From assembly GCF_900601905.1 (NCBI RefSeq), contig NZ_UWFA01000170.1, positions 372,001 to 436,000 of the forward strand: a stretch of DNA of 64,000 nt, in the 5' to 3' direction. The position numbers were made by a program, and so were the translations under genes. Below are positions 6,934 to 12,189 of the stretch, piece after piece (position 1 is the first letter of the stretch; every line of letters begins with the position of its first letter). The notes under the pieces were generated by a model. The model ran no database searches, was not told the DNA's origin, and saw only the letters and a list, made by a program, of their open reading frames with translations. The DNA is from Pseudomonas viridiflava. GTDB taxonomy: Bacteria; Pseudomonadota; Gammaproteobacteria; Pseudomonadales; Pseudomonadaceae.

Positions 6934-7522
6934 ACAGCATCCAGGCGCTGCTGAGTCAGGTTCCGTCCTGACGGCCGGGTCACTTTTGGTGCCAAAAGTA
7001 ACCGAAACCTCTGCGCTGGCGTGCGGCCCCCGCTTCGCGGCGGTTCCTTCGCTCCGGCACCGTGGGGCGGGCACGCGCCGACGGGCCATCCATGGCCCAA
7101 CGGCGCTCGCTCGGCATCCATGCCGAGCGACCCACCCCACGGCACCTCCGCTCAGCCTCCCGACGCGCATTTTGCGTCGTCTGTGAAATCGAGGAAAAAA
7201 AGCCAAAGCGAATCTGCTTTGTAGATTTCTCCATCATGACTTCTTGCTGGCTCACACCCTGCTTTTGATTTTGGTGGCCTGCGCAAAACCTAGGGGCGAC
7301 ACAAATTGCGACTTGTGGCCCACGGAGCAATGCCGGAGCGAGGGGAGTCTGAGCCTTGGCGAAGACCCGGACAAAGGAGCGGGAGCGTTTTGCTTACTTT
7401 TGACTGGGCCGGCATTCCGGCTCTATCAAAAGTGAGGCGCCGTAAGGGCGCAAAGGTGAATCAGCGTCGCCTCCTCTGCTGGATATGCATGGTTTTAGGG
7501 CTCCTCCAGAAGAGTATCTACA
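6934..7522. repeat. Large intergenic repeat, copy 1 (589 bp)
   Basis: The left part (about 6934-7235) and the right end (about 7480-7522) match copy 2 at 62577-62867 almost base for base; copy 1 carries some 240 extra bases between them. A palindromic ACTTTTG...CAAAAGT motif occurs near the left end (about 6979-7000) and again around the centre-right (about 7391-7437), like inverted ends. Several frames stay open on both strands because the GC is high, but none has a family signature or ribosome-binding site. I treat the element as non-coding and probably of mobile origin. Confidence 0.8.
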
Positions 7523-8563: not shown

Positions 8564-8630
8564 GTTTGTGGGTTCTAGACGTTACAGGGAGCATCAATTT
8601 AGCGAGCAAGCCGGTGCTTTTACTGAAGGC

Positions 8631-8658
8631 AAAAAAAAGCCACTCGGCAAGAGTGGCT
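8631..8658 (-). terminator. Minus-strand intrinsic terminator with no gene feeding it
   Basis: AGCCACTC/GAGTGGCT (8638-8658, five-base loop) is followed on the minus strand by eight T residues (8631-8638). No coding sequence ends here on that strand, so it probably ends a non-coding transcript that starts somewhere within 8700-8900. Confidence 0.7.
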
Positions 8659-8872
8659 CAAAGGGAAGTTCGGTGAGAAGTTCGGTCGTTCAGCCTGGTT
8701 GATCTTCTGTCGTGGACTGAAACGGGGCAGGTAATGGCTTTTGGCCCGGATGCCGGTGATTATCTGGCAACGGGATCGTCTCGTGAAATCAACTCTGGCT
8801 ATGCTGGTCATAGTTTTTGCAATAGTAAGACGCTTCCGAATGAGGCGTAGGTGAACTGGTTGAAGGGCTTCT

Positions 8873-8889
8873 TGCACAGGAATGGTGCG
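8873..8889 (+). promoter_or_regulatory. Probable NtrC binding site (upstream activator sequence)
   Basis: TGCACAGGAATGGTGCG matches the NtrC consensus TGCAC-N6-GGTGCA except for the last base. Its centre is about 86 bp before the predicted start of transcription of the ATP-grasp operon, inside the usual range for sigma-54 enhancers. Confidence 0.65.
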
Positions 8890-8909
8890 AACGGCTCATC
8901 GTGTTTATG

Positions 8910-8922
8910 TAACCAGTTGATA
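8910..8922 (-). promoter_or_regulatory. Integration host factor (IHF) site
   Basis: On the minus strand TATCAACTGGTTA fits WATCAA-N4-TTR at every defined position, and the adjoining DNA is AT-rich. It lies between the NtrC site and the -24/-12 promoter, where IHF would bend DNA to bring the activator to RNA polymerase. Confidence 0.65.
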
Positions 8923-8940
8923 AATAAGCGTTTATGCCGA

Positions 8941-8955
8941 TGGCACGGGCCTTGC
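8941..8955 (+). promoter_or_regulatory. Sigma-54 (RpoN) -24/-12 promoter
   Basis: TGGCACGGGCCTTGC is identical to TGGCACG-N4-TTGC, with GG at 8942-8943 and GC at 8954-8955. Transcription should start near 8967, giving a leader of about 25 bases that contains AAGGAG before the ATG at 8993. Confidence 0.88.
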
Positions 8956-8992
8956 GAAGGCCCTTGGTGTCCGTGGTGACAAGGAGTACGGC

Positions 8993-10402
8993 ATGATCCG
9001 CACCTTTTATGATGAGATGTACGATGCCGGCGGCCTGGTCCGCCCGCATTATCGGGAATTTGCCCGCTGGCTGGGGGAAACGCCGCCTGAGCTTCTGGCT
9101 CAACGCAGGCGTGAAGCCGACCTTTTGTTTCATCGCGCCGGGATCACGTTCACGTTGTACGGTGACGAGCAAGGCACCGAGCGGCTGATTCCGTTCGATA
9201 CTATCCCCCGCAGCATCCCTGCCAGTGAATGGCGGGTGGTCGAGCGCGGCTGTATTCAGCGGGTCAAAGCGCTGAACATGTTTCTCGCCGACCTCTATCA
9301 CGAGCAGCGCATCATCAAGGCAGGGGTGATCCCGGCCGAACAGGTGTTAGCCAACGAGCAATATCAGTTGGCGATGCAGGGGCTCAACCTGCACCGCGAT
9401 CTCTATTCACACATCTCGGGTGTTGACCTGGTGCGTGATGGGGATGGCACCTATTACGTGCTCGAAGACAACCTGCGTACGCCCAGTGGCGTGAGCTATA
9501 TGCTCGAAGACCGCAAGATGATGATGCGGCTGTTTCCCGAGCTGTTTGCCGCACAGCGTATTGCGCCCATCGACCACTACCCGAATCTGCTGCTTGATAC
9601 GCTCAAGAGCTCCAGCCCGCTGGATAACCCAAGCGTGGTGGTGCTGACCCCGGGGCGCTTCAACAGCGCATTTTTCGAGCATGCGTTTCTGGCGCGGGAA
9701 ATGGGTGTCGAGCTGGTCGAGGGTGCCGATCTGTTCGTCCGTGATGATCGGGTGTTCATGCGCACCACTGACGGCCCCAAGGCCGTGGATGTGATCTACC
9801 GCCGCCTGGACGACGCCTTCCTCGACCCGCTGGCGTTCAATCCCGATTCCATGCTCGGGGTGCCCGGGCTGCTGTCGGCCTATCGCTCGGGCAATGTAGT
9901 GTTGGCCAACGCCATCGGGACCGGCGTCGCGGATGACAAGTCGGTTTACCCGTTTGTCACCGACATGATTCGTTTTTATCTGGACGAAGAGCCGATCCTC
10001 AAGAACGTCCCCACCTGGCAGTGCCGCAAGCCCGAGGAGTTATCCCACGTGCTGGCCAACCTGTCGAAGCTGGTGGTCAAGGAAACCCAGGGGTCGGGGG
10101 GGTACGGCATGTTGGTCGGTCCTGCAGCCAGTGCTGCGGAAATCGAGTCGTTTCGTGCTCGCCTCAAAGCCAAACCCCACGCGTATATCGCGCAACCCAC
10201 ACTGTGCCTGTCGACGTGCCCGACGTTTGTCGAAAACGGTATCGCGCCGCGCCACATCGATTTGCGCCCGTTTGTCTTGTCTGGTCGTGAAACCCGCGTC
10301 GTACCCGGCGGGCTCACCCGAGTCGCGCTTCGCGAAGGCTCGTTGGTGGTGAACTCGTCTCAAGGTGGCGGAACAAAAGACACCTGGGTGGTCGAGGATT
10401 AA
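8993..10402 (+). CDS. Circularly permuted ATP-grasp family protein
   Basis: This 469-residue soluble protein belongs to the circularly permuted ATP-grasp family. The start MIRTFYDEMYDAGG and the motifs DLYHEQRII, GIDGTYYVLEDN-like (here DGDGTYYVLEDNLRTPSG) and VVKETQGSGGYGML are typical; the last is the glycine-rich nucleotide-binding loop. Comparative genomics predicts these proteins to be amide-bond-forming ligases acting with alpha-E and transglutaminase-like partners, but the substrate is not known. AAGGAG seven bases upstream fixes the start. It is the first gene of a three-gene operon behind a sigma-54 promoter, so nitrogen-status control is inferred. Confidence 0.9.
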   Translation: MIRTFYDEMYDAGGLVRPHYREFARWLGETPPELLAQRRREADLLFHRAGITFTLYGDEQGTERLIPFDTIPRSIPASEWRVVERGCIQRVKALNMFLADLYHEQRIIKAGVIPAEQVLANEQYQLAMQGLNLHRDLYSHISGVDLVRDGDGTYYVLEDNLRTPSGVSYMLEDRKMMMRLFPELFAAQRIAPIDHYPNLLLDTLKSSSPLDNPSVVVLTPGRFNSAFFEHAFLAREMGVELVEGADLFVRDDRVFMRTTDGPKAVDVIYRRLDDAFLDPLAFNPDSMLGVPGLLSAYRSGNVVLANAIGTGVADDKSVYPFVTDMIRFYLDEEPILKNVPTWQCRKPEELSHVLANLSKLVVKETQGSGGYGMLVGPAASAAEIESFRARLKAKPHAYIAQPTLCLSTCPTFVENGIAPRHIDLRPFVLSGRETRVVPGGLTRVALREGSLVVNSSQGGGTKDTWVVED

Positions 10403-10414
10403 GGATGCCTGCCA

Positions 10415-11374
10415 ATGCTAAGTAGAACTGCCTCGGATTTGTATTGGATGTCGCGTTATCTGGAGCGCGCAGAAAACCTCGCCCGGATGCTGGATGTGAG
10501 CTATTCGCTGTCTTTGATGCCTCAGGATGGACGCGGTGACGGCCTGGATGAGTTGGCCATGCCGCTGCTCATCACCGGTACTCTGGATCATTATCTGGAA
10601 CGCCATGGCGAGCTGCATGCCGAGCGTTTGCTGCACTTTTTTGCGCTGGACGCGAGCAACCCGGCCAGCATCTACAGCTGTCTCGGCGCGGCGCGGGCCA
10701 GTGCCCATGCGGTGCGTGGGCGAATTACCGCTGACATGTGGGAAAACATCAACGCCACCTGGCTGGAGATTCGGGGGATCGCCGAACAAGGCCTGAGTCG
10801 TTATGGCATGAGCCGGTTCTGCGAGTGGGTCAAGGAGCGTTCGCATCTGTTTCGCGGCGCAACCTACGGCACCATCATGCGTCACGATGCGTTCCGCTTC
10901 ATTCGTCTGGGGATATTCATCGAGCGGGCCGACAATACCTTGCGCCTGCTGGATGCCCGTTACGAAATGCTTGAACTGCGTGGTCGCGATACCCATCAGG
11001 TGTCCGACAGCTCGGCTCACGGCTACTACCAATGGAGCGCCTTGCTGCGTGCGCTATCGTCGTTCGAGGCCTACACCGAGTTGTACCGTGACGCACCGGG
11101 TGCCCGTCAGGTCGCGGAACTGTTGCTGTTGCGTCCCGACATCCCGCGGTCGCTGAGCGCCTGCCTCGAAGAACTGGCCTTGATCCTGGCCAGCCTGCCG
11201 GGCGCCAACGGGCGACCTGCCCAGCGTCTGGCTGCCGAGCTTGAAGCGCGCCTGCGCTATACCGGAATAGACGAAATTCTGGAGGAAGGCCTGCACGAGT
11301 GGCTGAACGAATTCATCCCGTTGGTAGCCCAACTGGGTGACGCAATCCACACATCTTATCTGGAGGCTGCATGA
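10415..11374 (+). CDS. Alpha-E domain-containing protein (DUF403)
   Basis: This 319-residue, mainly helical protein has the alpha-E domain. Typical elements are MLSRTASDLYWMSRYLERAE at the start, FIRLGIFIERADNTLRLLD in the middle, and repeated conserved Glu and Arg residues on helices. The family is found almost only beside circularly permuted ATP-grasp and transglutaminase-like genes; it is thought to work in the same uncharacterised peptide or amide metabolism, perhaps as a scaffold. It follows the ATP-grasp gene by 12 bases and overlaps the next gene by four (ATGA), so the three should be translated together. Confidence 0.9.
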   Translation: MLSRTASDLYWMSRYLERAENLARMLDVSYSLSLMPQDGRGDGLDELAMPLLITGTLDHYLERHGELHAERLLHFFALDASNPASIYSCLGAARASAHAVRGRITADMWENINATWLEIRGIAEQGLSRYGMSRFCEWVKERSHLFRGATYGTIMRHDAFRFIRLGIFIERADNTLRLLDARYEMLELRGRDTHQVSDSSAHGYYQWSALLRALSSFEAYTELYRDAPGARQVAELLLLRPDIPRSLSACLEELALILASLPGANGRPAQRLAAELEARLRYTGIDEILEEGLHEWLNEFIPLVAQLGDAIHTSYLEAA

Positions 11375-12189
11375 GACTCTCAATTAGCCACGAGACGACC
11401 TATCACTATGAGGATCAGGTACGCGCCAGCATCCAGTATTTGCGTCTGACGCCACATGACAGCGAGCGCCAGCAGGTGCTCAGCTGGCAGTTGAGCCTGC
11501 CGCGCCCGGTCCGTGCGCAAATCGATCCATTCGGCAATATTCTGCACGTGCTGACCATGGACGAACCCCACGAAGCGATCATCATCGGCGCCCGTGGTCA
11601 GGTGGAAATCGATGAAAAGCGTGAGGCCGAGCACGACAGCCAGTCGCCATTGCCGTTCCTGCGTTTCACGCGCCTGACCGAGCCTGACGAAGCGATTCGT
11701 GCGTTCGCCAGCAAGCAATGCCGCAAGCGCAAGGATCGCAGTGGCCTGATTGATCTGATGCACGCGTTGAATCAGCACATCACCTATACGCCGGGCGCGA
11801 CGGAAGTAGACACCAGTGCCGTTCAGGCCTTTGCCGGAGGCTCCGGCGTCTGTCAGGACCATGCCCATGCGTTCATCGCCTGCGCTCGCAGCCTGGGCAT
11901 TCCGGCCCGTTATGTGTCCGGTTATCTATACAGTGAAGACAGTGAGCACCTGGCCAGCCATGCCTGGGCTGAAGCTTGGGTCGATGATGCCTGGTATAGC
12001 TTCGACGTGACCAACCAGCTGGCTATTCCGGAGCGGCATTTGAAACTGGCCGTGGGTCTGGATTACCTGGACGCCTGCCCGGTACGCGGCATGCGTCGTG
12101 GTGGTGGCAGCGAACAGATGCACGCCAAAGTCCTGGTTGCGCCAATGCCCGGCGCACCAAAAGTGTTGATGCAGGCGCAGCATCAGTAG
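11371..12189 (+). CDS. Transglutaminase-like family protein
   Basis: This 272-residue protein has the bacterial transglutaminase N-terminal beta domain (about residues 1-85) followed by a papain-like transglutaminase core (about 110-220). The catalytic triad is visible: Cys161 in GSGVCQDHAH, His197 in ASHAWAEAW and Asp212 in WYSFDVTNQ. Such enzymes cleave or transfer amide bonds. No signal peptide is seen, so it should act in the cytoplasm with the ATP-grasp and alpha-E proteins encoded just upstream. Translational coupling through an ATGA overlap is evident. The substrate is unknown; formation by the ATP-grasp protein and hydrolysis by this one of the same amide bond is a hypothesis. Confidence 0.92.
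   Translation: MRLSISHETTYHYEDQVRASIQYLRLTPHDSERQQVLSWQLSLPRPVRAQIDPFGNILHVLTMDEPHEAIIIGARGQVEIDEKREAEHDSQSPLPFLRFTRLTEPDEAIRAFASKQCRKRKDRSGLIDLMHALNQHITYTPGATEVDTSAVQAFAGGSGVCQDHAHAFIACARSLGIPARYVSGYLYSEDSEHLASHAWAEAWVDDAWYSFDVTNQLAIPERHLKLAVGLDYLDACPVRGMRRGGGSEQMHAKVLVAPMPGAPKVLMQAQHQ

Follow-up and report, generated by a model that had tools for sequence, protein, structure and literature searches.

The locus raises two questions: which condition switches on an operon for an ATP-grasp, an Alpha-E and a transglutaminase-like protein, and whether its control depends on Anbu, the product of the fourth gene of the known Anbu operon. In the window (the whole 64-kb stretch of DNA that was analysed), three genes are located on the plus strand: 8993-10402 for a circularly permuted ATP-grasp protein of 469 aa (PF14403, CP_ATPgrasp_2, 548.6 bits; solved relative 3n6x), 10415-11374 for an Alpha-E protein of 319 aa (PF04168, 315.8 bits), and 11371-12189 for a transglutaminase-like protein of 272 aa (PF08379, Bact_transglu_N, and PF01841, Transglut_core), whose Cys161, His197 and Asp212 lie within motifs that we take to be those of the catalytic triad. 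The first two genes are separated by 12 bases, the stop of the Alpha-E gene and the start of the transglutaminase-like gene overlap in ATGA, and the three follow the gene order of the Anbu operon; 8993-12189 is probably read as one transcript.

Three predicted regulatory sites precede the ATP-grasp gene. For scoring, the following were used, which we take to be the respective consensus sequences: TGCACC-N5-GGTGCA for NtrC (12 defined positions), WATCAANNNNTTR for IHF (9 defined positions), and TGGCACG-N4-TTGC, with a final W in the longer form (12 positions), for sigma-54. The NtrC-type dyad TGCACAGGAATGGTGCG (8873-8889, plus strand; 10/12), a predicted NtrC enhancer, is followed by the IHF-type site TATCAACTGGTTA (8910-8922, minus strand, read 8922 to 8910; 9/9) and the -24/-12 sigma-54 promoter element TGGCACGGGCCTTGCG (8941-8956, plus strand; 11/12), with GG-N10-GC. 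Deduced from the GC position of the -12 element, transcription would start near 8967, which would place the centre of the predicted dyad at about -86. An IHF site between enhancer and promoter is common in NtrC-activated sigma-54 promoters, though not obligatory. The ribosome-binding site AAGGAG (8981-8986, plus strand) lies within 8977-8992 (identity 0.99 among relatives), followed by the ATG at 8993. The initial annotation had described the three sites and what follows them, and most stand as described: the dyad is present, the IHF site matches every defined position, its minus-strand orientation having been left unstated, and the ribosome-binding site and first gene follow. Its claim of a -24/-12 element identical to consensus holds for 8941-8955 (TGGCACG-N4-TTGC) but not for the longer consensus, where the final W is a G. 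A perfect palindrome, GGGCCTTGCGAAGGCCC, overlapping the -12 element, was judged fortuitous, its 3' half being neither conserved nor compensated in relatives.

Chance expectation was determined by searching both strands of the 64-kb window and 100 dinucleotide shuffles of it (6.4 Mb in total). The IHF motif occurred 3 times (shuffle mean 1.0), the NtrC motif twice (1.5) and the sigma-54 core once (0.12), whereas the ordered NtrC-IHF-sigma-54 combination had a single match in the window and no match in any shuffle. In the whole 5.75-Mb genome the combined pattern gave this single match, and a reversed control pattern gave 0. Each motif alone, being near chance frequency, is thus weak evidence; the combination is not.

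Conservation is the stronger test. Relatives of the first protein belong to Pseudomonas, those of P. graminis and P. caspiana being 98% identical, and comparisons were made with the best 80 of 577 relatives, a set thus biased to close ones, which comprised 76 distinct sequences. The three sites, whose conservation upstream of orthologues had been proposed as a check, are retained throughout: the dyad stood exactly 51 bp from the sigma-54 element in 80/80 of these loci, and among the 76 distinct relatives the GCAC/GTGC dyad halves and the sigma-54 GG-N10-GC were conserved in every case, as was an IHF site of at least 8/9 at a fixed place, which only 0.0008 (0.08%) of shuffled gaps contained. 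Identity to the window at the defined positions was 0.92 for NtrC, 0.82 for IHF and 1.00 for sigma-54, the last being the highest of the stretches compared, against a background of 0.38 at 8733-8784 and of 0.43 both in the gap between the NtrC and IHF sites and at the four N positions of the latter. The N4 of the sigma-54 element (0.98) and the stretch at 8923-8940 (plus strand; 0.82), which abuts the -24 element on its upstream side, are conserved too.

The strict pattern was then sought in a sample of 298 Pseudomonas genomes, the own genome included, and was present in 189, an upper figure, with at least six listed matches (G042, G045, G065, G077, G153, G257) differing in spacing and sequence; these six are located elsewhere in the genome and are other than the operon promoter. 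The reversed control matched in 3/298. For other matches, the location in front of this gene was checked visually in ten genomes only, the gene being that of the ATP-grasp protein. ATP-grasp homologues at E ≤ 1e-100 were present in 249/298 genomes, one of which (G272) is counted solely through a fused paralogue. Among these gene-positive genomes 189/249 contained the strict pattern, compared with 0/49 gene-less ones, 29 of the 49 having been assigned by exclusion.

The genomes with the gene but without the strict pattern numbered 60; of these, 55 are represented by the 60 loci compared next, 12 further places (6 whole, 6 partial) having been left out. Half of these loci (30/60) showed a sigma-54 element of at least 10/12 and, 50-52 bp away, a dyad of 8-10/12 (8/12 in 5 loci, 9/12 in 18 and 10/12 in 7); scores of 8 or more are reached by just 0.76% of random upstream 17-mers; since these loci keep the geometry, the strict pattern had overlooked diverged dyads. 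The 50-52-bp geometry was not found in the other 30 loci, namely 29 homologues of 83-88% identity and a second ATP-grasp copy of 90% (L148, G223:C8:8700-15000). The latter was observed to carry TGGCACGGGCTTGGCG, in which the -12 box TTGC reads TGGC, and no NtrC dyad was found at the usual place. Three genomes (G039, G135, G289) have a geometry-less copy alongside a copy with the geometry. Outside the genus, a sigma-54 element of at least 10/12 with a dyad of at least 9/12 at 50-52 bp was found within 500 bases in 0/29 class-level homologues; four (L172, L173, L188, L196) had both kinds of site, but 71-146 bp apart.

Many of the geometry-less copies have a conserved sigma-54-like element elsewhere. 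Eight Anbu-bearing loci (L117-L119, L160-L164) contain CGGCACCTTCATTGCA or a close variant near -160, and nine Anbu-less loci of 85-87% identity (L105-L108, L110, L112, L115, L157, L158) contain AGGCACAGCCTTTGCT or a close variant at about -174 to -245. In these nine no dyad of at least 9/12 was found; palindrome-like stretches, e.g. CGAAA-N5-TTTCG, were seen upstream in some of them. Four Anbu-bearing loci of 83-85% identity (L117, L119, L159, L161) have a dyad-like site of 9-10/12 at 129-132 bp from a sigma-54-like element of 10/12; L163 and L164 have such a site at 116 bp, and L154, which has no Anbu, at 65 bp. In L114 the dyad-like site scores 10/12 and the sigma-54-like element 9/12, with 140 bp between them. 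These operons may therefore also be under NtrC control, perhaps from a re-spaced nitrogen promoter. A general change of activator in Anbu-bearing operons was considered and dropped in view of the dyad-like sites that several of them have about 130 bp away; the preferred reading of the window promoter is unaffected by this rejection, since it does not rest on such a change.

The window operon shares its first three genes and their order with the Anbu operon (e.g. P. putida PP_2685-2688), whose fourth gene, Anbu, is absent from the window. As query, the protein L147:4187-4918 was used, which matches the solved Anbu chains 5lox (349 bits), 5loy ("Designed Anbu Protein") and 5nyj ("Anbu"); the PF00227 profile does not detect Anbu, and the sole PF00227 match of the own genome (G000) was rejected as Anbu, being HslV-like and adjoining an AAA ATPase gene. 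With this query no Anbu was found in the own genome at E ≤ 1e-20; none was seen in the window either, nor in the 80 named loci, two of which (L046, L058) end no more than 100 bases past the transglutaminase gene. The window operon thus amounts to the core genes of a known system, the Anbu operon, minus Anbu itself. Across the sample Anbu was present in 34/298 genomes (E ≤ 1e-20), and 181/189 pattern-positive genomes lacked it; of the eight that carry it, four (G042, G045, G065, G077) have their listed match elsewhere. Among the 60 pattern-negative loci (L105-L164, with L142 and L156, which are cut by contig ends, included in the counts), 7 had both the geometry and Anbu, 23 the geometry without Anbu, 15 Anbu without the geometry, and 15 neither. 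From these locus counts and the 181/189 genomes it follows that the promoter is independent of the presence of Anbu.

The own genome contains an ntrC gene (C474:110906-112276; TIGR01818, 794.5 bits versus a cut-off of 558.6), and sigma-54 and IHF genes are expected in Pseudomonas. The nearby glnA (PF00120), an expected NtrC target, is preceded by TGGCATGCAATTTGCT, a -24/-12 element of 11/12 as in the window, whereas a single dyad of at least 10/12, such as the window promoter has, was not found in the glnA region (L169). A second ATP-grasp/Alpha-E cluster (contig C308, L102) has the domain families of the window operon in common with it, but at 40% identity and, unlike there, with ATP-grasp and Alpha-E fused; no sigma-54 element of at least 10/12 was found in its 10.5 kb. 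A neighbouring protein of 1110 aa in this region (G000:C308:82500-93000) carries transglutaminase and DUF2126 amidoligase domains.

Further features were observed around the promoter. On the minus strand, opposite to the operon and beside its promoter, a candidate small-RNA gene spans 8629-8813. Its parts are a CTAT-N7-ATAG dyad within a conserved block (8785-8813), a GATAAT at a distance of 40-41 nt in 62/81 loci (window included), CTTCCCTTT in 59/81 loci, and a putative intrinsic terminator, located at 8659-8637 in the window; block, -10 and terminator follow in this order in 60/81 loci. The candidate's body is variable, the fold of the window copy is not unusual (z -1.2), and no Rfam match over threshold was found there. 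Between the block and the NtrC dyad, an imperfect inverted repeat, CGCTTC-CGAAT-GAGGCG (8831-8848), recurs in relatives with a varying loop. At 7069-7133, minus strand, the Rfam family TwoAYGGAY matches with 51.2 bits (gathering score 43).

Nitrogen control of this class of operon is already in print and not new. In two articles (PMC5666114, PMC6376114), ATP-grasp, Alpha-E, transglutaminase and Anbu are described as forming an operon, for which tagging, peptide synthesis or protein turnover have been hypothesized; there the Yersinia bercovieri ATP-grasp protein is reported to release phosphate from ATP, the work on Yersinia detected no peptidase activity of Anbu, and the nitrogen induction of the P. 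putida operon is credited to Hervas 2008. For wild-type KT2440 under nitrogen limitation, PP_2686-2688 are listed as up 11 to 15-fold and PP_2685 (Anbu) at 1.12 (PMC7801951), while for KT2442 PP_2685-2687 are listed as rising, PP_2685 with a first-column value of 11.1 (PMC3325844). On nitrate versus ammonium, PP_2685 and PP_2688 are given as up by log2 4.44 and log2 3.99, respectively, and a reporter of the PP_2688 promoter was induced 3.7-fold upon nitrogen depletion, with no response from that of PP_2685 (PMC8050072). The likeness of the window operon to PP_2685-2688 is one of gene set and gene order; PP_2689, the endoribonuclease gene upstream in KT2440, was not found beside ATP-grasp copies among the fetched loci. 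For B. cenocepacia H111, the ntrC regulon table assigns I35_5080-83 fold changes between -6.0 and -9.4, and the same genes are named among common sigma-54/NtrC targets (PMC5491218). These proteins (DUF404/407, DUF403) are homologous by domain name and include two transglutaminase-like proteins, one of them called large, compared with one in the window operon. No description of a Pseudomonas operon that has this promoter but no Anbu was found in the accessible text of the literature searched, which covered few subscription journals.

One published result stands apart. Induction of PP_2686-2688 persisted in the rpoN mutant of KT2440, at 14 to 20-fold (PMC7801951, Table 2). Expression independent of rpoN is the kind of outcome that the initial annotation had named as refuting its reading, and it has here been published for a homologue rather than for this organism. 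In the same mutant, urtA-D, assigned to NtrB/NtrC in that article, were also induced, 7 to 17-fold (PMC7801951), so that doubt falls either on the data for the mutant or on the assignment to sigma-54. If the mutant is clean, P. putida would not require sigma-54 in the conditions used; the Burkholderia data indicate the opposite. The initial prediction of a switch in nitrogen limitation is supported by the nitrogen control published for the P. putida and B. cenocepacia homologues, while its sigma-54 part is at odds with the KT2440 mutant; as a physiological handle on the operon, nitrogen induction is not new.

The persisting induction in that mutant would fit an operon that is nitrogen-induced mainly from a sigma-54-independent promoter, the -24/-12 element contributing little, and the conserved block at 8785-8813 (identity 0.88) does contain, on its plus strand, TGGCTATGCT, which we take to resemble an extended -10. 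This is nonetheless unlikely: the sigma-54 positions show an identity of 1.00 over the 76 distinct relatives, the B. cenocepacia cluster is named as NtrC- and sigma-54-dependent, and a loose form of the 8785-8813 pattern was present in only 7/30 of the distant loci that keep the geometry. That the sigma-54 promoter answers to a different enhancer-binding protein, and not to NtrC, is less probable still. The nine Anbu-less loci with a far-upstream sigma-54-like element but no dyad of at least 9/12 suggest that the activator may differ between operon classes; in the window, by contrast, the dyad at 8873-8889 scores 10/12 with its halves conserved in all distinct relatives, and the homologous operons respond to nitrogen, the Burkholderia one to ntrC. 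That the motifs match by chance and are conserved by ancestry alone would agree with their single frequencies, but is hardly credible given that conservation is much higher at the defined positions than in the gap separating the NtrC and IHF sites, and that the combination is missing from all 49 gene-less genomes of the sample.

The preferred reading, which we hold with high confidence, is an NtrC-activated, IHF-assisted sigma-54 promoter that switches on the ATP-grasp/Alpha-E/transglutaminase operon in nitrogen scarcity. The binding of NtrC and IHF, sigma-54 dependence and nitrogen-limitation induction are predicted from sequence, and induction is suggested by analogy with the P. putida and B. 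cenocepacia operons as well. When nitrogen is scarce, phosphorylated NtrC would activate the predicted promoter from the dyad at -86, contacting the sigma-54 polymerase through a loop over 51 bp. IHF, judging from its predicted site, would likely bend this spacer; as the distance is so short, bent DNA at this site would favour the contact, in keeping with the strict spacing. The operon at 8993-12189 would thereby be switched on, its ATP-grasp enzyme presumably forming an amide bond and its transglutaminase-like enzyme cutting or exchanging one. Most likely the operon makes or remodels an amide-linked product, the least certain step of this explanation; a cycle of amide formation and cleavage that recycles or stores nitrogen is favoured, with low certainty.

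The nitrogen response of the operon likely does not need Anbu. Prior hypotheses, as quoted, centre on Anbu as a protease, peptidase or de-tagging enzyme. That the nitrogen promoter accompanies the ATP-grasp, Alpha-E and transglutaminase genes with or without Anbu is a useful new constraint. Because the NtrC-IHF-sigma-54 promoter stayed with the trio in lineages without Anbu, it may tentatively be proposed, at somewhat less than even chances, that the nitrogen-starvation unit of Pseudomonas is the trio itself, with Anbu dispensable, and that the trio forms a self-contained cycle of amide formation and cutting, by which nitrogen is tagged or stored without a proteasome-like partner. Most of the sampled ATP-grasp-positive Pseudomonas genomes are without Anbu, as are most of those with the strict pattern, so that a search for the selected function can turn to the other three proteins, under nitrogen limitation, in strains where no Anbu would confuse the result.
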